Shown here: positions 38,286 to 62,518 of the stretch, in pieces
Layout of the letters: each line of letters opens with the position of its first letter
Position numbering within the stretch: position 1 is the stretch's first letter
Assembly (NCBI RefSeq): GCF_014905115.1
Contig: NZ_CP041235.1
Location: forward strand, 62,001-126,000
Origin: Sulfurimonas sediminis
Lineage (GTDB): Bacteria > Campylobacterota > Campylobacteria > Campylobacterales > Sulfurimonadaceae
Length of the DNA stretch: 64,000 nucleotides
Direction: 5' to 3'
Notes under the pieces: generated by a model
Database searches by the model: none
Told to the model about the DNA's origin: nothing
Seen by the model: the letters and a program-made list of their open reading frames with translations, nothing else
Program-made: the position numbers and the translations under genes

Positions 38286-39252
38286 CCAGCAAAGATTCTC
38301 TTATGTGTAAAATATCTTCAATATTTTCTAAAAACAGGTGCACGATTTCAGGATGAAAATGCACACCACTTCCTTCTTTGATGATTTCAAGTGTCTTTTC
38401 TATGCTAAAAGGCTCTTTGTAGGGTCTCTTGCTCAAAAGTGCATCAAATACATCCACAACAGCTACAATCGCTCCACTCAAGGGGATTGCATCTCCCTGT
38501 AACTTTTTTGGATACCCTGTTCCGTTGTATTTTTCATGATGAGTCAGAGCAATTTCAGCTGCCAATACCAAAAGGGGTGTACTCTTTTGGGAGAGGATTT
38601 CATATCCTATCTGTGCATGTGTTTTCATTATTTCAAACTCATCATCATTTAATTTTCCCGGTTTTAGCAGTATATTGTCGGGGATGCCGACTTTTCCCAT
38701 ATCGTGCATCGGTGCAGCAAGACGCATCAGTTCAATCTCTTCTTGATTCCAGCCGATTTTTTTTGCCAAATAGGCAGATATTTCTCCAACACGTATCGTG
38801 TGCATAGAGGTTTCATTGTCTCGATACTCTGCCGTTTTTGCCAAAATATGAATAATCTCTTTTTCATTTTTCTTGTTTTGCAGTTCTCCCATTCTGACAG
38901 CATTCTTCACACGCAAAAGAAATTCTGTAATGTCGAATGGTTTTGTAATATACTCATTTGCACCAATTTTTAAACCCTTGGTTATTGCCTCTCTGTCTGA
39001 GAGTGCGGAGATAATAATCACAGGAATATGGGAAATATTTTCATCTTCTTTAATGATTTTAAGTGCTGTATAGCCATCCATGACAGGCATCATCAAATCT
39101 AAAAGCACTAAGTCGACTGCCTCTGTCTGCATAATGTCGAGTGCTTCCTGCCCGTTTTGTGCTTCTATAACTTCAAAACCCTCTTTCTTAAGAATTTTGG
39201 AAGCGACTTTTCTGTTCATCAATTCATCATCGCATAACAATACTTTTGCCAT
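38278..39252 (-). CDS. Response regulator with HD-GYP phosphodiesterase domain
   Basis: 324 residues: receiver about 1-120 (VDLVLLDLMMPVMDG) and HD-GYP about 135-310 (RLAAPMHDMGKVGIP, then THHEKYNGTGYPKKLQG), so cyclic-di-GMP hydrolysis is expected. The start overlaps the stop of the PBP-like gene upstream by one base, and the kinase gene overlaps downstream: a tight three-gene signalling operon within the redox block. Confidence 0.88.
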   Translation of the reverse strand: MAKVLLCDDELMNRKVASKILKKEGFEVIEAQNGQEALDIMQTEAVDLVLLDLMMPVMDGYTALKIIKEDENISHIPVIIISALSDREAITKGLKIGANEYITKPFDITEFLLRVKNAVRMGELQNKKNEKEIIHILAKTAEYRDNETSMHTIRVGEISAYLAKKIGWNQEEIELMRLAAPMHDMGKVGIPDNILLKPGKLNDDEFEIMKTHAQIGYEILSQKSTPLLVLAAEIALTHHEKYNGTGYPKKLQGDAIPLSGAIVAVVDVFDALLSKRPYKEPFSIEKTLEIIKEGSGVHFHPEIVHLFLENIEDILHIRESLLDD

Positions 39253-39656
39253 CAGTCACTCCATTTGTAAATAATTTTTAAATCTTTATCAGCTTTTGCT
39301 GCTTCAAGATACCCGATTGCTCCAAAAACTTTTTTCACAAAAGCATTTACTGCGGCTTCGGACTTAAGCGTTATTGGCGGTCTCTGTCCAAGATAGTGCT
39401 GTTTAATCCAGTAGGACTTTAGGCGTGAGTGCTTGATTTTTAATACTTTTTTTTCAAAACTTCTCCGCACAGAGTTTTGTGAACCAAGATTAATGGGTAC
39501 CAGTTTTGTGTCACCATGATACTTGAGTTTTTTAAGATAGATCGCTTTTATTTTTCCAACAGAGATATTTGCAAATCCTTTTTGTACCACTACGGCATAC
39601 TCTTTTGCCTCTACAACTGAAATGATAAAAATGATGAGGAACAGATATTTTTTCAT
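39252..39656 (-). CDS. Periplasmic PBP-like (phosphate-binding-type) small protein
   Basis: 134 residues from ATG 39656, which overlaps the upstream stop as TGATG. Signal peptide MKKYLFLIIFIISVVEA. VGKIKAIYLKKLKYHGDTKLVPINLGSQNSVRRSF and SYWIKQHYLGQRPPITLKSE match the small PstS-like proteins that sit beside signalling genes in many proteobacteria. It may feed a ligand signal to the kinase encoded two genes downstream, whose Cache domain faces the periplasm (inference). Confidence 0.7.
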   Translation of the reverse strand: MKKYLFLIIFIISVVEAKEYAVVVQKGFANISVGKIKAIYLKKLKYHGDTKLVPINLGSQNSVRRSFEKKVLKIKHSRLKSYWIKQHYLGQRPPITLKSEAAVNAFVKKVFGAIGYLEAAKADKDLKIIYKWSD

Positions 39657-40663
39657 CAAAACAGTACCGACCATGAAAATATAAACTGATTTTCATCATG
39701 TAGTGAATGAAACTGATACTCCGCCTTGAATGCCACCGGATAAAGCGGTCTGTATGTATACCCGACAATAGCTATGTTGTCTTGGCGATTTGTATCGGTT
39801 TGACTGTATGATTCTAAGCGGACAATTCCCAGATGCTTCTCATTAAAGCGATACCCTCCTTGCAAGTATCCCGCATATTTTGTTGTGAAGCCCTTGTTAT
39901 TCCTCTGTGTGCCAAATTCACTTGTTATCTTATAGTGCTCTGCATCGTACTGCAGCGATGCAACCGCATAATACAAATGTGTGGAGGATGTATCTGAGAC
40001 GACATTATCAAACATGCCGATGTTGAGTTTTACATTAAGATCATTGTGCGTATATGACACACCTGCTCCGTAATGTTCATCAGTTTTGTAGTTGTTGTAG
40101 TTTGCATCGAGATCGTCATTGTGCTGTAATATAACATCTATCTGCAGTTCGTCATCGCCATATCTGCTATAACTGCCATAGAGTCCTGTAGAGAATTTTG
40201 GAAAGAGGATGGATGTGCTTACAGGGTTGGAAGTTGTATCTCGAAGGACGTTTATAGGCAGTAGATTCCAAAAACCTATCGGTGAATTGTATTTTCCTCC
40301 GCGAAGCATAAAGTTTTCATTAAAAGTGTAGTCTATATAAAGCCGTTCCGTGTGCAGTCGTGTATTTCTCTCAATGGTATGTGTTGCATTAAAGTCTGTA
40401 TAGGTATAAAACTCTTTATATTCCATCTCTGCGAGATAAGAAAATTTGTTATAGTTTCCGTAGGCAAGCAGAGCGATGTCATCTACTCTGTAACGATTGG
40501 TATTGCTTTTTTTTGTATAATCAGCAGAGAAGTAACCGCCAATGTACAAAGGGAGTGTACCGACTTGCACACCCTCTCCCAGAGTGTATTCATTCTCCTT
40601 GGTTTGGGAGTCTTGTGCAAGCAGAACAGTAAAGAAACATATAAATAAAAGAAATATTTTCAA
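39656..40663 (-). CDS. Outer-membrane beta-barrel protein
   Basis: 335 residues. Signal peptide (MKIFLLFICFFTVLLAQ), then alternating strands throughout, for example YYAVASLQYDAEHYKITSEF and a C-terminal FSWSVLF ending in Phe as outer-membrane proteins do. YIGGYFSADYTKKSNTNRYR near the N-terminus is typical of porin-like proteins found beside PBP-like genes. Function in the operon is not known; a surface channel is the simplest view. Confidence 0.7.
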   Translation of the reverse strand: MKIFLLFICFFTVLLAQDSQTKENEYTLGEGVQVGTLPLYIGGYFSADYTKKSNTNRYRVDDIALLAYGNYNKFSYLAEMEYKEFYTYTDFNATHTIERNTRLHTERLYIDYTFNENFMLRGGKYNSPIGFWNLLPINVLRDTTSNPVSTSILFPKFSTGLYGSYSRYGDDELQIDVILQHNDDLDANYNNYKTDEHYGAGVSYTHNDLNVKLNIGMFDNVVSDTSSTHLYYAVASLQYDAEHYKITSEFGTQRNNKGFTTKYAGYLQGGYRFNEKHLGIVRLESYSQTDTNRQDNIAIVGYTYRPLYPVAFKAEYQFHSLHDENQFIFSWSVLF

Positions 40664-40671
40664 GAGGATCC

Positions 40672-41592
40672 TTATGGAAAAATTTCACATGCTTTTATAT
40701 CTAAATTTTTAAAATTTTCAAATAAAAGCTCTCCTTCATCAGTTACGGCAATTATAGCAACATCATACTCTTTTGACAAGTCTTTCAATTCATGGGCAGG
40801 GGTATTAAAGGCTATAGTCGCAACCGCATCCAAAAGTGTTGCCGTTATACCGTTTTTTAAAACTGTTAGACTGCTGTAGTAATGGTTTTGTGTAGCAGAC
40901 TGACTGTCTAATATATGATGATTTTTTTTCGAGCCGATATAACGTTCATAATCTCCACTTGTAGAGATACTAAAAGGCGTGTTTTTTGTTTCGATGACAC
41001 CAAGATATTTGTGTATGTCAAAAGGATTGGTAATGGCGACCCGGTAGTTTTTTCCCAGTGTAAGTATCTCACCCCCAGCATTGACAAGGATTTTTGTCGC
41101 TCCTTTGCTTTGTAGAAATAAAAATACTTTTTGAGCAATATACCCTTTGCCTATCCCCCCAAGATCCAGACGCATTCTTTTTTTTGCAAGAAATACTGTG
41201 TTGTCTTTTACATGTAACTGGCGGTAATCGACAAGATGTTTTGTTTTTTGAAGTTCTTGTTTGGCAGGTATCTTCTTATCTGTTTTCCCAAAACCGTAAA
41301 GCCCCTGTGTCAAAGCACCGATTGTGGGATCGAATTTTCCTTTTGAGCGTTGTGCGATTTTGAGTGCTTCTGAAAAAAGTTCACACTCCTCTTGGTTACA
41401 TGTAACCGCTTCAATCCCTGCATTTTTATTGATTAGAGAAACAAGGGAATCCTCATTATAGGCAGAAAATCTCTCTTCAAAACGCTTGACACTCTCAAGC
41501 GCTTCAAAGAGAATTTTGCGAGAAACATTGGCCTCCATGATAAGCTCTGTGCTCATCACTTTGGCTTTTAATCCTCTTATGAAAAAACCCAT
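40672..41592 (-). CDS. apbE: FAD:protein FMN transferase, apparently without a signal peptide
   Basis: 306 residues from ATG 41592; ATG 41610 is in frame and overlaps the DUF3570 stop. Markers: RFSAYNEDSLVSLINKNAG, GKFDPTIGALTQGLYGFG, RLDLGGIGKGYIAQKV, VNAGGEILTLG and HHILDSQSA. The enzyme attaches FMN to Ser/Thr of target proteins. Typical ApbE is exported as a lipoprotein, but here the catalytic domain begins within about ten residues and no hydrophobic leader exists in frame. It follows the DUF3570 gene in the same operon, which contains a target-like motif. Confidence 0.9.
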   Translation of the reverse strand: MGFFIRGLKAKVMSTELIMEANVSRKILFEALESVKRFEERFSAYNEDSLVSLINKNAGIEAVTCNQEECELFSEALKIAQRSKGKFDPTIGALTQGLYGFGKTDKKIPAKQELQKTKHLVDYRQLHVKDNTVFLAKKRMRLDLGGIGKGYIAQKVFLFLQSKGATKILVNAGGEILTLGKNYRVAITNPFDIHKYLGVIETKNTPFSISTSGDYERYIGSKKNHHILDSQSATQNHYYSSLTVLKNGITATLLDAVATIAFNTPAHELKDLSKEYDVAIIAVTDEGELLFENFKNLDIKACEIFP

Positions 41593-41593
41593 T

Positions 41594-42718
41594 TTAATAC
41601 TCAAACTCATAGGTGAGTGTGGTAAAAACAGCCTTTATGCTGTCCACGCCATACCAGTTTTTAATATAATCGTTTTTACTGGTTTGATAATAGTCAATGC
41701 TTGCTGTCACCTTGTCACCTTTACTTGTTTTATAAATGAACGGCAGTCCAATTGTATAGGAGTCAAAGGCACTCATACGGTAATCTATGGCAAAGTAAGG
41801 GTCATTGACACTGTAGCTGCCAAGAGCTTTGACAAAATTGGACTTTGTCTGCGTATAATAGCGCAATCTAAGGCCAGATGTAAAATGTGAACTGAAATCG
41901 TGCAACTCTTCTATATTGACTGTATGTGATTTTATATCCCAGTCATCTGTATAATACCGATAGGAAAAGTTCATTGCATTGTCTGGGTTAAGGAGATATA
42001 CTCCCTTGAATGCAAATGCTTTTCCTGTTCGTGTTTGGGGATAGTTTTCAAACTTTGCAAAACCATCTTGCAGTACATAATGATACGGAGAAGATAAAAA
42101 ACCTTCACTGTACATGTAAGAGAAAACGCCCTGAAGCGAAAATCCCGGTGTTATCAACTGATTGAGAGAGAGGTCAATTTTACCCTCTTTTCTATCATCT
42201 CTTGGCAATTCTCTGTCAAATACAGGGTACCAGTAATCAGACGATTGTGAAATACCGATTCCAAGTGCAGTATTTTGCTCGTTGAGTTGACGTACATAGT
42301 TTACAAAGACTGCTCTGCCGGTATAATCTGCCTCTTTTGAGTAATACGCTCCAAAGCTTAGCATATTTTTTCCGTCATCATATGTAGCCATGAGAGTCGG
42401 GGCATAGCGTACATCATCAAAAAGTACTCCTTCCGCACGTGATGCGCCTGTAACGGCATCTACTCTTTGTGAATTGGCACCGTTACTGATACTTGCTGCC
42501 GTAATTGTGTCAATTCTCATCTTAAATCCAAGCATCCACTGATGCGATACTTTTTTAAACAAAGAAAATGTCGGTGAATAAACCTGTACATCTGCATTGT
42601 CACTGTAGCTGTTTATTCCAAAACTCATACTGTCTTTCAGGCTCGATGCCAAAGAACTTATCTCAAGTGCAACAAGAGAAATCATCATCCATATAAAATA
42701 TTTTAACGACATCCGCAA
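41594..42718 (-). CDS. DUF3570 outer-membrane beta-barrel protein with ApbE-target-like motif
   Basis: 374 residues. Signal peptide about 1-25, then a barrel of alternating strands to a final YEFEY. Residues 87-93 read DAVTGAS, matching the Dxx(S/T)GA(S/T) pattern in which the Thr or Ser receives FMN from ApbE. DUF3570 genes commonly sit with DUF4266 and ApbE genes. If modified, the barrel could carry flavin for electron transfer at the outer membrane; this is inference. It overlaps the DUF4266 gene by 16 bases. Confidence 0.85.
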   Translation of the reverse strand: MRMSLKYFIWMMISLVALEISSLASSLKDSMSFGINSYSDNADVQVYSPTFSLFKKVSHQWMLGFKMRIDTITAASISNGANSQRVDAVTGASRAEGVLFDDVRYAPTLMATYDDGKNMLSFGAYYSKEADYTGRAVFVNYVRQLNEQNTALGIGISQSSDYWYPVFDRELPRDDRKEGKIDLSLNQLITPGFSLQGVFSYMYSEGFLSSPYHYVLQDGFAKFENYPQTRTGKAFAFKGVYLLNPDNAMNFSYRYYTDDWDIKSHTVNIEELHDFSSHFTSGLRLRYYTQTKSNFVKALGSYSVNDPYFAIDYRMSAFDSYTIGLPFIYKTSKGDKVTASIDYYQTSKNDYIKNWYGVDSIKAVFTTLTYEFEY

Positions 42719-42921
42719 CCCCCCTGAAAACTACTCTCTCCTCCGGCGCTCGCTTCACGGATAAGAAAGATATGTCCCTCCTGTTCGGCACGTTCGGCAA
42801 CCGGAGAAAGGCTCATCTTGTCTTGCGCAAAAAACTCTTTCTCGTACGGCATAACCCGGACAAGTTTTTCACTGCAGCCTGTTATAAATAGCATTAAAAG
42901 CACTAAAAAAAGTATCTTCAT
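42703..42921 (-). CDS. DUF4266 lipoprotein
   Basis: 72 residues. Lipoprotein signal MKILFLVLLMLFITGC with the lipobox Cys at 16. VMPYEKEFFAQDKMSL is the DUF4266 core, and the C-terminus SSFQGGCGCR is Cys- and Gly-rich as in this family. The Cys pair could bind metal or be a thioredoxin substrate of the TlpA-like gene upstream. Stop overlaps the barrel gene; its start is three bases from the TlpA stop. Confidence 0.85.
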   Translation of the reverse strand: MKILFLVLLMLFITGCSEKLVRVMPYEKEFFAQDKMSLSPVAERAEQEGHIFLIREASAGGESSFQGGCGCR

Positions 42922-42923
42922 CC

Positions 42924-43418
42924 CTATTTCCTTTCCAGCTCAGCTATCTTTTTCTCTAAATCCTTTATCATTGCTTTATCAAGGCTGCCTATGTAAACTG
43001 CCGCAATTTTTCCTTCCTTGTCAATCAGGAATGAAGATGGCAGTCCGGGACATCTATATGCCTTTGGCAAACTCTTTTTTACATCATACAGGGCAATGAG
43101 GTTTTTGTCTGGATCAACTCTGTTTAAAAACTCTTTTGCATTGTCATCTACACTGTCTATGCTTGCAGCAACAACTATAAAATCTTTTTTGTTGTGCCGT
43201 TTTTGCAAAGCAACAAAAAGAGGCATCTCCTCTTGGCATCCACTGCACCAGCTTGCCCAAAGATTGAGCAGTACCACCTTGCCTCTCATCTCACTGTTGC
43301 TTAGTACTTTTGCAGGCTTATAAAGCAGTGGCAGTGTATAGGCTACCTGCTTGTCTCCTTCTCTCGGTGCGGCAAAAAGAGTGAGGCATATCATTACTGT
43401 TAATATTACTTTTTTCAT
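42924..43418 (-). CDS. TlpA-like periplasmic thioredoxin
   Basis: 164 residues, signal peptide MKKVILTVMICLTLFA. LLNLWASWCSGCQEEMPLFV has the active-site CxxC, and GLPSSFLIDKEGKIAAVYIG has the cis-Pro region. It likely reduces disulfides of cytochromes or of the DUF4266 protein in this block. It is co-directional with all neighbours from 48239 to 36261. Confidence 0.88.
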   Translation of the reverse strand: MKKVILTVMICLTLFAAPREGDKQVAYTLPLLYKPAKVLSNSEMRGKVVLLNLWASWCSGCQEEMPLFVALQKRHNKKDFIVVAASIDSVDDNAKEFLNRVDPDKNLIALYDVKKSLPKAYRCPGLPSSFLIDKEGKIAAVYIGSLDKAMIKDLEKKIAELERK

Positions 43419-43429
43419 TATTTCTCTCC

Positions 43430-44011
43430 TTATTTACATAAATCAGCATTGATTGATGCATTCAAAAAATCGGTTGTTTTTCCGTTGTGACAGGTATTAC
43501 ACGATAAACGATTTGAAAAATTTTGTGGATTATCAATAGAGTATTCTCCGCCACTAAAATTATGTGATGCCTGTCGTGACTGTGCCATTGTACGTCCGGA
43601 TACCCTTTCAATTATTCTTACTGTGTAAGAACCGTTGAGCGTAGCATTAAAAAGTCTGTCAAGTAGAAAAATATTACCTCTTCCATTATTTCCATTTGAA
43701 TTTTCATCATAATAGCTGGCTGTCGAATACACAGTATTGAAGTTATTATCCAGAAATTCTACAGCCAGATCTGCATCACATACCTGGTTGAGGTCATCTA
43801 TATCGGTGGTATTGTAACTTTTAAAAAGTGTCCCTCCAAAAACAAGATGTTTGTCTATCCCAAGATCAACATTGTGACATGCCAAACAATCGCGTCCCTG
43901 AAAATGCCAACCGCTTGCAGTGGTTGTATTTTCTTCTCCCCCGTCATCTTCACCGCATCCGTTTAAGAACAGTGTTACAGGGATTATTACTGCCATAATC
44001 CAGTATTTCAT
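43430..44011 (-). CDS. Periplasmic diheme cytochrome-like lipoprotein
   Basis: 193 residues from ATG 44011, which has AGGAGG upstream. Lipoprotein signal VIIPVTLFLNGCGED. Two CxxCH motifs: GRDCLACHNVD and LSCNTCHNGK. Between them is a beta-rich region (SYTVRIIERVSGRTMAQSRQ) shared with the larger protein at 44263 (NYTVEVLDRAGNVVNRSATN), so the two are related by domain. It probably passes electrons in the periplasm. Confidence 0.8.
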   Translation of the reverse strand: MKYWIMAVIIPVTLFLNGCGEDDGGEENTTTASGWHFQGRDCLACHNVDLGIDKHLVFGGTLFKSYNTTDIDDLNQVCDADLAVEFLDNNFNTVYSTASYYDENSNGNNGRGNIFLLDRLFNATLNGSYTVRIIERVSGRTMAQSRQASHNFSGGEYSIDNPQNFSNRLSCNTCHNGKTTDFLNASINADLCK

Positions 44012-44262
44012 CAAGCCTCCTTTGTTTTTTGTTATTTTATGCATCAATTATGAAAAATTGATGAAGATTTTGTCCTCTATGGTAAATTTTTTTAAAGGAA
44101 TTAATTAAATGATTAAATGGTGCCAAAGTAGATTGATGTTAGTATGAAAAGAAGTTCCCAAAGTAGTATAATCACTGTAGATGGAAGTTGTAGCACTCAA
44201 AAAGTGCTACTAAAATTTACTTGATACAGAATTTAAATGGTCTCGATATTTCATTCTTTTTC

Positions 44263-45888
44263 CTAATTATCAAGTGCACCGGCAGCAATCCAGTCACGAA
44301 CTGTAGTATATTCTACAGAATCGATGTTGATAATGATGCCTCCTCCGTGTCCTGTGCTTCCGCTTCCTTTTTGTAAAAGAGAGGAGTTTGTAGGATTTGC
44401 GGTATCAACAAAAGGGGTAACCCCTGCATATGGCGTTGTGCTGTTTGTTATGGAGAAATTACCACTGTTTCCATGGCAGGAAGCACAGTTGTTATTTAAT
44501 ATTGGCAGCACATCATTGGCAAAAGAGATTGTTGGTAATGGCGATGTTGTTGTGTTTGTATCTACAATCACAGTTGTATTTGTATCCACAGGAAGCGGCA
44601 CAGCTGTATTATTTGTATCTGCTGTAACAGGAGCCTGATACATAAACGATACGATTCTGCCAGGTGCGCCATTTGCTCCGTTGAGAGAGTGACAACTGTT
44701 ACAATCGAGTCGGGAGTCATTGTGTGAGTTTGTGGCTGAGCGATTTACTACATTTCCGGCTCTGTCTAAAACTTCAACAGTATAATTTCCTAATCCTGCA
44801 TTGACATTCGCATATACATTTCCTGTTCCGCGGGCCAAACGGTATGATTCAATAATACCGCTTTGGAGTACCAGGCGTAAGCTGTAGCCACTGGCGGCCT
44901 GGGATGCATTTGCATTTTCCCCATGAAGCAGCGTATAGACAGTGGCACCGGAACTAAAAGCATTTTCTCCGGCTTCATTGTTTTCATTATCCTCATTATC
45001 CTCATTGAGGGCAACAGCACCTGTAGTACTGTGACATTGCGCACAGCTTTGACCTTGATAATGCTGCGCGTCTTCTCCCTCATCTTCATAGTCTACATCC
45101 CCATGTTCAAGTTCATAATCATGTTTGAGATTTATAAGATGTGTTGTGAGCTGTGCTATTTCATCTTCACCAATCTCATTTTCAAGTTCTGTTTCTATAT
45201 CTGAAAGTTCTGCTTCGTTTTCAATTTTTTGTACAGTGGTGCTTGTTGTTGCCAATGAGTCAACCAGGTCTTTTTCTTCCTGCTCTGTATCATGTGCATC
45301 ATCTTGCATATATTTGTCATATTCTGCCAGAACATCGACATCTCTTATTACAGCTGTTGTGTTTAACTCGTTGAGATCATTAATATCTGCAGTTTTTGCG
45401 TACCTGTAAAGTGCATTTGAAATAGCTTCCACTTTCAAAGACTCGCTCGGAGTTTTTTCAAATACATCAGCCTGTGTCAGGTTTAAATCATTTAACATTG
45501 CATCCAATGCTGTTTGTGTCTGCGGATTTGTTTCAAGTGTTGTCAGGAGTGTTATCACATTCCCTTTGACTGTGGTTAAATTCATATCATTGACGACATC
45601 ACCAAGGCTTACTTTCCCGTCTCTGTCAAGATCAATCACACCCTTACTCGCAACTATAGGGTAGGTCGGTTGTGAAGCAAAACTGTACTTTCCGTTTGCC
45701 AGCTCAGTTGCAACTTGCCCTGAGGCATCTACTACATCTGCTCCGATAATCGGTCCTCTCTCAACTGTAATTGTAGTTGCTCCTGCAACTGGTTGAGTTG
45801 TGTCCGTTGCCGTTGTGTTTGTTGAACTTCCACAGCCGCTTAATATTGCCATTGCTGCCGCAATGCTAAGAATAGAAATGTTTTTCAT
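44263..45888 (-). CDS. Large multiheme lipoprotein with three CxxCH motifs
   Basis: 541 residues. Lipobox LSGCGSS, then a calcium-type loop DLDRDGKVSLGDVV near 70, a long acidic helical region (about 150-250), and heme motifs CAQCHSTTG, CNSCHSLNG and CASCHGNSG. A Thr/Pro-rich linker (about 410-450) separates the last, cytochrome-c-like domain, whose end (EYTTVRDWIAAGALDN) is typical of planctomycete-type cytochromes. Likely surface or periplasmic electron carrier. The gap 44012-44262 between it and the diheme gene holds no gene. Confidence 0.82.
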   Translation of the reverse strand: MKNISILSIAAAMAILSGCGSSTNTTATDTTQPVAGATTITVERGPIIGADVVDASGQVATELANGKYSFASQPTYPIVASKGVIDLDRDGKVSLGDVVNDMNLTTVKGNVITLLTTLETNPQTQTALDAMLNDLNLTQADVFEKTPSESLKVEAISNALYRYAKTADINDLNELNTTAVIRDVDVLAEYDKYMQDDAHDTEQEEKDLVDSLATTSTTVQKIENEAELSDIETELENEIGEDEIAQLTTHLINLKHDYELEHGDVDYEDEGEDAQHYQGQSCAQCHSTTGAVALNEDNEDNENNEAGENAFSSGATVYTLLHGENANASQAASGYSLRLVLQSGIIESYRLARGTGNVYANVNAGLGNYTVEVLDRAGNVVNRSATNSHNDSRLDCNSCHSLNGANGAPGRIVSFMYQAPVTADTNNTAVPLPVDTNTTVIVDTNTTTSPLPTISFANDVLPILNNNCASCHGNSGNFSITNSTTPYAGVTPFVDTANPTNSSLLQKGSGSTGHGGGIIINIDSVEYTTVRDWIAAGALDN

Positions 45889-46649: not shown

Positions 46650-48239
46650 TTAGCTTTTGAATTCGTCGATTGTTTTCTGTAAAGAAGAGGCAACCTGTAC
46701 GAGTTTTTGCAAATCAGCTTCTATACTGATGACACTTGTACCGTTTGCGGTGGAAAGGGTTTCTATCTTCTCTATATAGCGAATGATTTCTTGAATGTTC
46801 TGCGACATTTTTTCACTGTCGTCTTTTGATTTGTTTGCCATCTGTGAAGAGGTTTGCATCGCTTTGGAAGTTGTCGTGATTTTTTGTTCCACATCATCAG
46901 ATATATGGACAAGAGCTTCTATGTTTTGCGCATTGACTGTCATCTTGTCACTGACGTCATTGATAGCCTGCACAATAGTGCTGACACTGATGTCTATCTC
47001 TGCCAAACTTTTTTGGGTGCGTTCTGCAAGTTTTCTGACTTCATCGGCAACCACGGCAAATCCGCGCCCGTGTTCTCCTGCGCGCGCAGCTTCTATGGCG
47101 GCATTAAGGGCTAAAAGATTTGTCTGTTCGGCTATCTCTTTGATAACATTGAGGACATTTTTGACCTGATCGGCATCATTTTTAAGGACTAAAAGTTCGC
47201 TTGAGAGTTCGTTTTCACTCTCTACAAAATGTTCTACTTCACTGTTAAGTTTTGCCAGAGAGCTGTGTGCCTCTTCGAGTTCTTTTTCGGCATTGAGAAT
47301 CGTTTCCTGAGTAACAGTGGCTGCCTCTATGGTTTCATCTAAAATCTTTTGGATATCTTCTGTTTTTTGGCTTGTTTTGGAAACAATTTCTCTCTCCTGC
47401 TGTACCCCCTTGCGTATGACATGGGAAGAAATTTCTATTTCAGAGGCAATTTCATTGTTTTGTTCGCCGAGAGATTTTACCTCATTTACGGTAGATTGTA
47501 TCATTTCTATAAAGTGATTGACTTCATTGGCAGTTTCACCAAACTCATTGCCTTTTTTGTAGGCAAGACGTTTGGTTAAATCTTTGTTCCCACGGACAAG
47601 GTCTGCAATCCTCTCTTTGAGATTGTTCAGCGGTGTAAAAATTTCACGGCTGAAAAAAATGAGAGCAACAATGCTAAAAGCGATACCTCCGATAATCAAA
47701 GAGATGATAAGCGTTGTGTTTGTCTGTGTAATCTCTTCATCGTTTTTGTCAAGAGATATTGTCAAATCCATTGCTCCAAGAGCATACCCGACTTCTGCAT
47801 TGTAGTGACACTGGAGGCATCTTTTTTCGGCTGTCATTGGTTTTATCATGCGAATAATATGGTGCCCGTCTTCATTTTTTTCGATAATTTTTGTCTGTTT
47901 GTTTTGTAAAACTTCCTGTATAAGAGGGTCGGTCGTATATGTTTCATTTGGTGCATAAACTTCCATAACGGCTTTTGATTTTGCAATTTTCAAGTCTTCT
48001 ATGCCGTCGATGCTTTTTGCACTCTCAAAGGCAGTTTGGACAACTTCGGGGTCACCCATCATCATACTTGTTGTCATCGTCTGAAAAATGGACTCACTCA
48101 GCATTTTTAGAGATTTTTTTGCAGTGCTATCGGAAAGACTGTGCAGTGTCGAGGAGAGATAATAGGACATTCCGATAAGTCCGAGAATACTTAGTGCGGC
48201 AATGGAGACAATTACTTTTGACTTTACTGATGAAAACAT
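46650..48239 (-). CDS. Chemoreceptor with a periplasmic heme-binding-type sensor domain
   Basis: 529 residues. Membrane helix about 8-28, a periplasmic Tll0287/DUF3365-like domain (about 30-175) containing [20 protein letters not shown], i.e. a CxxCH heme c motif, a second helix ([19 protein letters not shown]), HAMP, and the signalling tip [20 protein letters not shown]. It should sense redox or gas ligands through heme. It sits directly upstream of the response regulator gene, which in turn precedes the cytochromes. Confidence 0.88.
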
Positions 48240-61417: not shown

Positions 61418-62518
61418 ATGAATATAATATCTTTATTCTCTGGTGCAGGTGGATTAGATTTAGGGTTTGAAAAAGCAGGTTTTAAAACTATATGGGCAAA
61501 TGAATATGATAAAGAGATTTGGGAAACATTTGAAAAAAATTTTCCAGATGCTATTCTAGATAGAAGAAGTATCTCAAAAATTTCGTCAGATGAAATTCCT
61601 GAAACTTTAGGACTTATTGGTGGTCCTCCATGTCAAAGTTGGAGCGAAGCAGGAAAATCAAGAGGTATTGACGACCATAGAGGACAACTATTTTTTGAAT
61701 TCATAAGAGTTCTAAGAGATAAAAAACCTCTGTTCTTCTTGGCTGAAAATGTTTCTGGTATGTTGGCAAGTCGCCATAGTGAAGCACTAGAAAATATTAA
61801 AAATCATTTTATTGATAGTGGATATAATTTATCATTCAAGCTTTTAAATGCTCATGACTATAAAGTACCACAAGATAGAAAAAGAGTATTTTTCATTGGA
61901 TTTAGAAAAGATTTAAATATCACCTTTGAATTCCCAAAACCATTTTCAAAAAAAAGATTTTTAAAAGATGTAATTTTTGATTTAAAAGATAATGTTTTAC
62001 CTGCGAAAGATAAAAATTATACAAATGGTGATGACTGTAAGATAGGAAACCATGAATTTATGACTGGTGGTTTTTCGTCAATGTTTATGTCAAGAAATAG
62101 AGTCAGAAGTTGGGATGAACCATCATTTACGATACAAGCAGGTGGAAGACATGCTCCACTTCATCCGCAAGCTCCTAAAATGCAGTTTGTGGAGCAAAAT
62201 AAAAGAATATTTGTTCCTCATAGTGAACATTTATATAGAAGACTTAGCATTAGAGAATGTGCTAGAATTCAAACATTCCCAGATAGTCATAAATTTTATT
62301 ATAAAAATTTAAGTGCAGGTTATAAAATGGTAGGAAATGCTGTACCACCATATTTGGCATATTATTTGGCAAAAGAAATACAAAAACAACTATTAAGCAT
62401 ATATCCTAACAAATCCTTGGAAATAATAAGTGAACCTATCTCTCAAAATTCAAATATTAATGACATATCATATATTCCTGATATATCAAAAAGTGCTAAG
62501 CAAACGGTTCACTTATAG
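61418..62518 (+). CDS. DNA cytosine-5 methyltransferase (partner of the NgoPII-like enzyme)
   Basis: 366 residues. C5 motifs in order: [35 protein letters not shown] (catalytic Cys), [50 protein letters not shown]. The target recognition region lies between VIII and IX (about 170-260). It should protect the same GGCC-type site. A C-terminal tail beyond motif X is Ser/Ile rich. Ends before an inverted-repeat terminator. Confidence 0.92.

Follow-up and report, generated by a model that had tools for sequence, protein, structure and literature searches.

The DUF3570 Gene Cluster of Sulfurimonas sediminis

The DNA analyzed here, referred to as the window, is a stretch of 64,000 nucleotides (positions 62,001 to 126,000 of contig NZ_CP041235.1) from the genome of Sulfurimonas sediminis, which is assembled into one contig of 2.32 Mb and is 99.99% complete. 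Its subject is a gene that encodes a protein of the family DUF3570 and lies beside the gene for ApbE, an FAD:protein FMN transferase (FAD, flavin adenine dinucleotide; FMN, flavin mononucleotide). The open reading frame (ORF), at 41594-42718 of the minus strand, is genuine; it starts with TTG, codes for 374 amino acids, and matches the family profile PF12094 with E=4.1e-50 and 171.3 bits against a cut-off of 25. It belongs to six successive minus-strand genes which encode, in order of transcription, a cytochrome with three CxxCH motifs, a cytochrome with two, a TlpA/ResA-like thioredoxin, a DUF4266 protein, the DUF3570 protein, and ApbE (Table 1). The DUF4266 and DUF3570 genes overlap by 16 bases and the DUF3570 and apbE genes by 17 bases. 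Gene order and family matches thus bear out the operon of apbE, a DUF4266 lipoprotein with a Cys-Gly tail, and a TlpA thioredoxin proposed in the initial annotation. The flavinylated outer-membrane barrel suggested there is likewise well supported, but it is not new, since flavinylation of DUF3570 was shown in 2021 (Meheust et al., eLife 2021, PMC8238504).

Table 1: Features of the DUF3570 cluster and its surroundings (positions are those of the window).
Feature	Position	Strand	Basis
DUF3570 protein, predicted outer-membrane 16-strand beta-barrel, 374 amino acids, export signal, C-terminal aromatic residue	41594..42718	-	PF12094, AlphaFold, PDB matches
Flavinylation site 2, D87AVTGAS93, predicted FMN acceptor Ser93	42440..42460	-	Sequence and acceptor rule of PMC12052999
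Flavinylation site 1, D70TITAAS76, corresponding to the family-wide site but with Ala for Gly, FMN predicted on Ser76	42491..42511	-	Alignment, 82/82
Loop L2 (residues 73-101), joining strands 3 and 4 on the face with the long loops, which by convention is extracellular; bears the predicted FMN acceptors	42416..42502	-	AlphaFold model
ApbE FAD:protein FMN transferase, signal peptide absent; active-site Ser, His, Asp, and Thr present	40672..41610	-	PF02424 E=1.4e-61
DUF4266 lipoprotein, C-terminus GGCGCR (QGGCGCR)	42703..42921	-	PF14086 E=1.4e-13
Exported TlpA/ResA-like thioredoxin, active site CSGC	42924..43418	-	Family match
Lipoprotein c-type cytochrome, two CxxCH	43430..44047	-	Homologue in 13/15 window-clade loci
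Lipoprotein c-type cytochrome, three CxxCH	44263..45888	-	Homologue in 12/15 window-clade loci
Exported porin-like protein, no Pfam match	39656..40663	-	In 8/15 window-clade loci
Small exported protein, no Pfam match, often adjoins the porin-like gene	39252..39674	-	In 6/15 window-clade loci

Flavinylation Motifs and Their Conservation

Residues 87-93 of the DUF3570 protein read DAVTGAS (site 2), as had been reported initially, and are the one occurrence of D..[ST]GA[ST] among the 118 six-frame ORFs of at least 100 amino acids in the window. The pattern arose in 0.3% of 20,000 shuffles of the protein, and two Dxxx[GA]A[ST] heptamers per chain in 0.06% of them; a chance motif is ruled out by the shuffles (0.3%) together with the conservation described below. 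Where the initial annotation had seen a single motif, a second one was overlooked, namely DTITAAS at residues 70-76 (site 1), which has Ala in place of Gly and aligns with a site found throughout the family. Within D-x-x-[ST]-G-A-[ST], the residue to which ApbE attaches FMN is the final Ser/Thr, and seven residues suffice for the enzyme (PMC12052999). The predicted acceptors are therefore Ser93 and Ser76, and Thr90, for which FMN had initially been proposed, is to be abandoned.

A profile of six Campylobacterota proteins, run against the genome contigs, yielded 210 relatives, the best 80 of which were kept; with the window protein and those of five loci added and four duplicates removed, an alignment of 82 DUF3570 proteins resulted. 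The Asp and the terminal Ser/Thr of site 1 are conserved in all 82. Group A, comprising 44 proteins assigned to Campylobacterota by record title, has a canonical site 1 in 44/44 and a canonical site 2 in 43/44 members and usually a third site, giving 131 canonical motifs in total. Group B, the clade of the window protein, consists of 15 proteins from Campylobacterota and Aquificota, one of them unassigned. Its site 1 invariably ends in AAS and is canonical in none; site 2 retains Asp, Ala, and Ser in 15/15 members, Asp87 and Ser93 of the window protein among them, and is canonical in ten. The remaining 23 proteins, mostly from Gammaproteobacteria, have a canonical site 1 in 20 cases and lack site 2 in all.

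The relation between motif and ApbE was surveyed in Pseudomonadota, where 33 DUF3570 places were found and 32 loci examined (G709 was left out; L252 repeats L098). A canonical motif is present in 19/21 loci with ApbE in the same 12-kb stretch versus 5/11 loci without it (Fisher p=0.0099), from which it follows that the motif goes with ApbE, though not absolutely. To this extent the initially expected conservation of the motif in ApbE-linked proteins holds; it does not extend to site 2 as such, which is found in only 58 of the 82 aligned proteins.

Two further observations concern the family. A divergent Pseudomonadota subfamily (L224, L225, L228-L235, L285) has no adjacent co-directional ApbE; the motif of its 11 members is canonical in four, reads SSAS in five, and is missing in two. 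The DUF3570 open frame of L251 (G433) comprises 912 amino acids, roughly double the normal length, and has its motif close to the N-terminus.

Barrel Fold and Placement of the Motifs

The AlphaFold2 model of the window protein, built with 75 sequences, is a 16-strand barrel with a predicted local distance difference test score (pLDDT) of 89.6 and a predicted template modelling score of 0.85, and the model of a group A protein has the same strand count. The PDB matches listed by Foldseek and VIA-align are outer-membrane barrels, including BamA (model 9a2o, Z 21.7), PgaA (4y25, Z 19.4 over 255 residues, root mean square deviation 3.4), and BcsC (6tzk, Z 19.1 over 297 residues, root mean square deviation 4.3). 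With these and PelB (9h80) the fold is shared at Z 19-22, but sequence identity is 6-10%, and a common fold is no proof of a common function. At the sequence level, the DUF3570 profile found no match among the sequences of solved structures up to E=1. The features expected of an outer-membrane beta-barrel, namely a signal peptide, an even number of strands, and a C-terminal aromatic residue, are all found in the window protein, and 78 of 81 DUF3570 proteins end in F, Y, or W.

One face of the modelled barrel has turns of 2-5 residues, and the loops of the opposite face measure 4, 29, 2, 11, 22, 4, 27, and 15 residues. As a rule, outer-membrane barrels have their short turns and both termini on the periplasmic side; the long loops would, therefore, be extracellular. 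Site 1 starts at the end of strand 3, with Ser76 just past it. Site 2 lies in the disordered loop L2 on the long-loop side, so that the burial in a strand considered at the outset does not apply. In the group A model, site 1 is located in an extension of strand 3 (58-78) past the usual strand length, and sites 2 and 3 are found in loops. When the 161 canonical motifs of the 82 proteins were mapped via the alignment onto the window model, 117 fell into L2 and 44 into L4, both on the long-loop face, and none into strands or turns. By the convention for outer-membrane proteins, the loops predicted to carry FMN would face the cell exterior.

Most ApbE Enzymes Linked to DUF3570 Lack an Export Signal

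ApbE is normally a periplasmic enzyme (PMC12052999), and an exported ApbE would be recognized by an N-terminal signal peptide or a lipobox. Neither is present in the window ApbE, in which 26 residues precede the MST of the domain start and no charge-free hydrophobic run follows any start codon. ApbE frames were read from stop codon to stop codon, so that the choice of start codon cannot hide a signal; a wrong start codon masking it is thereby ruled out. Signal peptides were scored with a hydropathy rule of our own (threshold 2.0) instead of SignalP, a limit that counts against the pathway proposed below. Applied to positive controls, the same rule classified 80/80 DUF4266 and 73/82 DUF3570 proteins as signal-like; eight of the nine misses score 1.39-1.99, and one has a cut 5' end.

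The survey covered ApbE ORFs of more than 200 amino acids from 39 DUF3570 genomes, in all of which every DUF3570 was located, and from the sampled loci; L032 (172 amino acids) and the split fragments G300:C83 and G305:C20 were left out. Counting sampled DUF3570 genes only, the 106 distinct ApbE ORFs divide into 69 that have one within 4 kb and 37 that do not; signal-like N-termini are found in 3/69 versus 28/37 at threshold 2.0 (p=1.2e-14) and in 5/69 versus 28/37 at threshold 1.5 (p=4.8e-13). Inspection of seven of the eight signal-less "unlinked" neighbourhoods revealed that five adjoin unsampled DUF3570 genes (L277, L279, L280, L282, and L283, with that of L282 being a fragment), and L117 (G298) is a further signal-less ApbE beside DUF3570. 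The corrected tally of 107 ORFs has 76 within 4 kb of DUF3570, four of them signal-like and 72 signal-less, and 31 elsewhere, 28 of them with a signal (27 by score, L144 by eye); the resulting p=3e-18 is overstated, because the rows are related. The signal-like scores of L033, L069, and L095 are artefacts of an upstream frame overlapping DUF3570 coding DNA. Apart from these and from L143, described below, the signal-bearing ApbEs lie on different contigs or at least 31 kb from DUF3570.

Among further ApbEs, none of the 21 (one a repeat) of the Pseudomonadota loci scores above 1.81, the domain anchor being rough there, and four Aquificota ApbEs and one Vibrio ApbE are all signal-less. Five ApbEs encoded elsewhere in genomes of Pseudomonadota loci without ApbE in the stretch were read; by the same rule, three are signal-like (L273, L274, L276) and two are not (L271, L272). 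Bacteroidota were represented by one Hymenobacter plasmid region (L253); Chlorobiota were outside the sample. As a side observation, the signal-less ApbE of L278 (G289:C1, 6371-7213), which is not near DUF3570, lies one gene from a large exported ORF resembling a TonB-dependent receptor.

ApbE Phylogeny, Active Site, and Sole-Enzyme Genomes

In a tree of 106 ApbEs, the signal-less enzymes of the window type, with those of two Sulfurimonas metagenome-assembled genomes (MAGs) as nearest rows to the window ApbE, nest with signal-bearing Campylobacterota ApbEs (support 100/99), including the second ApbE of the same genome. Group A and gammaproteobacterial ApbEs make up another signal-less clade, apart from these. 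This tree calls for at least two changes of the signal label, one of which may, under midpoint rooting, be a gain. According to an alignment to solved ApbEs and inspection of columns, the active-site Ser, His, Asp, and Thr are kept in the window ApbE, which is thus predicted to be competent, and the catalytic/metal-binding Asp is kept in 14/14 linked ApbEs of group B.

The second ApbE of the window genome possesses a signal peptide and is encoded 2 kb from an exported FMN_bind protein (SGAT). All ApbEs found are signal-less in sixteen genomes (G044, G289, G295, G304, G306, G310, G313-G321, G747); completeness is stated for three of these (G044, G289, G295), each being at least 99% complete. 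Of these genomes, G747 alone yielded FMN_bind, and DUF2271 was found nowhere in the set. Two records deserve separate mention: G295 has two DUF3570 clusters (L014, L017), one of group A and one of group B, each with its own signal-less ApbE, and L024, whose record bears the title of a Helicobacter pylori MAG, falls among Arcobacteraceae in the ApbE phylogeny and is probably mislabelled.

Proposed Pathway and Alternatives

The motifs, the barrel, the one-sided placement of the loops, the missing signal peptide, and the operon were computed in this analysis; an extracellular position of the loops (from the convention for outer-membrane proteins), modification before export, and electron flow are what we infer beyond them. 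The pathway would start in the cytosol, where FAD is plentiful. There, the signal-less ApbE would transfer FMN from FAD to the motifs, which follow the signal peptide at a distance of some 45-68 residues, while the precursor is still unfolded and has not yet completed Sec export. The flavinylated chain would then pass SecYEG, the barrel would be folded by the BAM machinery, and the flavin would be displayed at the cell surface or at the barrel mouth. The mature DUF3570 barrel would bear FMN bound covalently to one or both of Ser76 and Ser93 on loop L2, and electrons would be exchanged between a partner outside the cell, be it acceptor or donor, and a periplasmic route consisting of TlpA, the CGC-tailed DUF4266 lipoprotein and, in the window clade, also the two lipoprotein cytochromes. 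The conserved neighbours (TlpA, the cytochromes, the CXC tail, and DsbD in the related locus L016) suggest electron transfer. Taken as a whole, a 16-strand barrel with one or two FMNs on an outward L2, loaded by cytosolic ApbE before or during Sec export and serving electron transfer at the surface, is regarded as somewhat probable. For the export step as such, in which an unfolded precursor would be loaded in the cytosol and the covalent flavin would cross Sec to extracellular loops without any export of FAD, belief falls just short of even. The open lumen of SecYEG may reach 2.4 nm (PMC6028853). A signal-truncated pair of Chlorobium DUF3570 and ApbE was used in E. coli, by the wording of the methods, which means that cytosolic modification is feasible, at least with this truncated pair (PMC8238504).

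Several observations weigh against this pathway. A genuine signal-bearing ApbE, L143, is encoded in G323 only 1.9 kb away from a divergent DUF3570 (DKISSAS), which is on the other strand, and the ApbE of the Hymenobacter cluster (L253) has a clear signal peptide, albeit in a broken frame and in a cluster whose DUF4266 frame does not end in CXC; from these two cases it is obvious that a missing ApbE signal is not universal to DUF3570. The linked ApbEs L086 (1.96) and L054 (1.79) come close to the threshold, as do some true DUF3570 signals, and the signal-less ApbEs L161, L168, and L173 have no DUF3570 nearby. The Gly to Ala change in site 1 of the window protein is one that cut flavinylation to about 50% in the fumarate reductase of Klebsiella (PMC12052999). 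No canonical motif at all is found in five of the 15 window-clade proteins, whose fourth position in site 2 is V, A, or I (L016, L017, L073) or A (L083, L085), so that the Ser/Thr looked for initially is not conserved among the nearest relatives; ApbE-linked DUF3570 proteins without a canonical motif occur elsewhere, too (L236, L245, L279). Loop L2 is disordered in the model (residues 87-94 with pLDDT below 50) and could fold into the barrel. All linked ApbEs of group A (36/36) and of the gammaproteobacterial group (19/19), that is 55/55, carry Gly at the position of the catalytic Asp. Where a genome has two ApbEs, flavinylation could be performed by the exported one. Finally, no measurement of translocation, flavin, or electron transfer on an exported DUF3570 was found in the literature, as far as its text was available.

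The last point but one leads to the strongest alternative, according to which ApbE reaches the periplasm without a recognizable signal, or a second, exported ApbE modifies DUF3570 there before barrel assembly, the neighbouring gene being a partner in the chromosomal sense only. The usual periplasmic location of ApbE (PMC12052999), the exported ApbE of the window genome, and the signal peptides of the Hymenobacter enzyme and of L143 fit this scheme. It is nevertheless considered rather unlikely, since sixteen genomes, three of them at least 99% complete, have the signal-less ApbE only, 72 of the 76 ApbEs within 4 kb of DUF3570 are signal-less, and the ApbE tree requires two changes of the signal label.

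It is distinctly improbable that the signal-less ApbE serves another, cytosolic target and that the motifs of DUF3570 are mere remnants. Klebsiella does provide an example of a cytosolic ApbE acting on a cytosolic protein (PMC12052999), and the Gly for the catalytic Asp in linked ApbEs of two other clades would be in line with relic motifs; against these stand the Asp and acceptor of site 1, kept in 82/82 proteins, the retention of the motif with a nearby ApbE, and the genomes having signal-less ApbE only, 15/16 of which lack FMN_bind and 16/16 DUF2271. Moreover, a DUF3570 protein received its flavin from the cognate ApbE in E. coli (PMC8238504). An equally poor chance is given to FMN loops facing the periplasm, with DUF3570 as an outer-membrane-anchored carrier of flavin in the periplasm, for although the orientation is inferred rather than measured and no flavin on an extracellular barrel loop was found described in the available literature text, the sixteen strands, the 2-5 residue turns opposite, and the full-length matches to outer-membrane barrels all speak against it.

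As to the consequences of cytosolic loading, Sec substrates are commonly assumed to cross the membrane as bare polypeptides, with cofactors being added later or carried in folded proteins via the twin-arginine (Tat) pathway. A covalent flavin attached before export would, if true, break this rule for Sec; it would also explain how ApbE chemistry comes to outer loops that are beyond the reach of a periplasmic enzyme after assembly. Likewise, if true, a flavin-based, haem-free electron transfer at the surface would exist in Campylobacterota, Aquificota, and Gammaproteobacteria, and an unexplained gene cluster would be turned into a testable mechanism.

Relation to Known Systems

In porin-cytochrome conduits such as MtrCAB, an outer-membrane barrel is found beside lipoprotein c-type cytochromes and redox proteins, as in the window cluster. 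Different from MtrCAB, the window barrel has predicted covalent flavin sites, and its cytochromes contain only two and three CxxCH motifs.

DUF3570 as a substrate of ApbE is already published, one Chlorobium member having been tested (PMC8238504). The Chlorobium luteolum protein, to which the cognate ApbE attached flavin in E. coli, contains two [ST]GA[ST] motifs, and flavinylation was abolished only when both serines were replaced. The same work describes DsbD clusters containing DUF3570 (227), thioredoxin (183), and DUF4266 with a CXC tail (221), as well as 316 clusters in which ApbE, DUF3570, thioredoxin, and DUF4266 occur together but DsbD is absent. The window cluster resembles this "DsbD system" in its four gene families, in the two motifs per DUF3570 (of which the window protein has one in canonical form and one with Ala for Gly), and in the C-terminal CXC of DUF4266, but has no adjacent DsbD and contains two lipoprotein cytochromes, an addition of the window clade that goes beyond the published accounts found. 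The available text of PMC8238504 makes no mention of a barrel ("barrel" occurs 0 times), of the side of the loops, or of a linked ApbE lacking a signal. An AlphaFold survey (mSystems 2024, PMC11334425) states that the contexts of flavinylation sites reflect localization at the cytosolic membrane, in the periplasm, or at the outer membrane, so its authors may have an outer-membrane substrate in mind; in the available text, DUF3570 is not named in the passage on site contexts, and "barrel" occurs 0 times. The fumarate reductase ApbE of Klebsiella pneumoniae lacks a signal peptide as well, but its target is cytosolic (PMC12052999), whereas the target in the window is predicted to be an exported outer-membrane protein.

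In literature searches that covered no preprints and few subscription papers, PMC8238504 was the only work naming DUF3570, DUF4266, or PF12094, and the review PMC12052999 the only one on a cytosolic ApbE. No text tying ApbE to a flavinylated porin of the outer membrane or to a surface-exposed outer-membrane protein with covalent flavin was found, figures and supplements being outside the search. A linked ApbE lacking a signal was not found in literature text either, though the published Supplementary file 1 might show it. The placement of the motif loops on one side together with the missing signal of the partner ApbE thus looks new and is open to testing.

Distribution and Neighbouring Genes

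Above the cut-off, DUF3570 is patchily distributed, with 5/298 genomes of the phylum (window genome included), 29/397 Pseudomonadota (including the centre genome of the search), and 8/136 Aquificota (including two already known). Scans of viral contigs, for which the window protein and alignment A4 served as queries, revealed no relative, and scans of plasmids gave five records with the window protein and two with the Hymenobacter protein.

ApbE adjoins DUF3570 in the window and in 14/15 window-clade loci, a TlpA homologue is present in 15/15, and the tail GGCGCx (CXC) of DUF4266 is found in 80/80 relatives of the sampled set. DsbD is absent from the window cluster; two DsbD_TM genes lie elsewhere in the genome, and in the close relative L016 a DsbD gene follows apbE. 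The G289 homologue of the porin-like protein weakly matches Porin_O_P. Outside the cluster, positions 46650-48239 of the window encode a protein which by eye resembles methyl-accepting chemotaxis proteins and has a CxxCH motif (RCLQCHYN) in its sensor part, suggesting, from its sequence, a haem-based sensor beside the redox operon.
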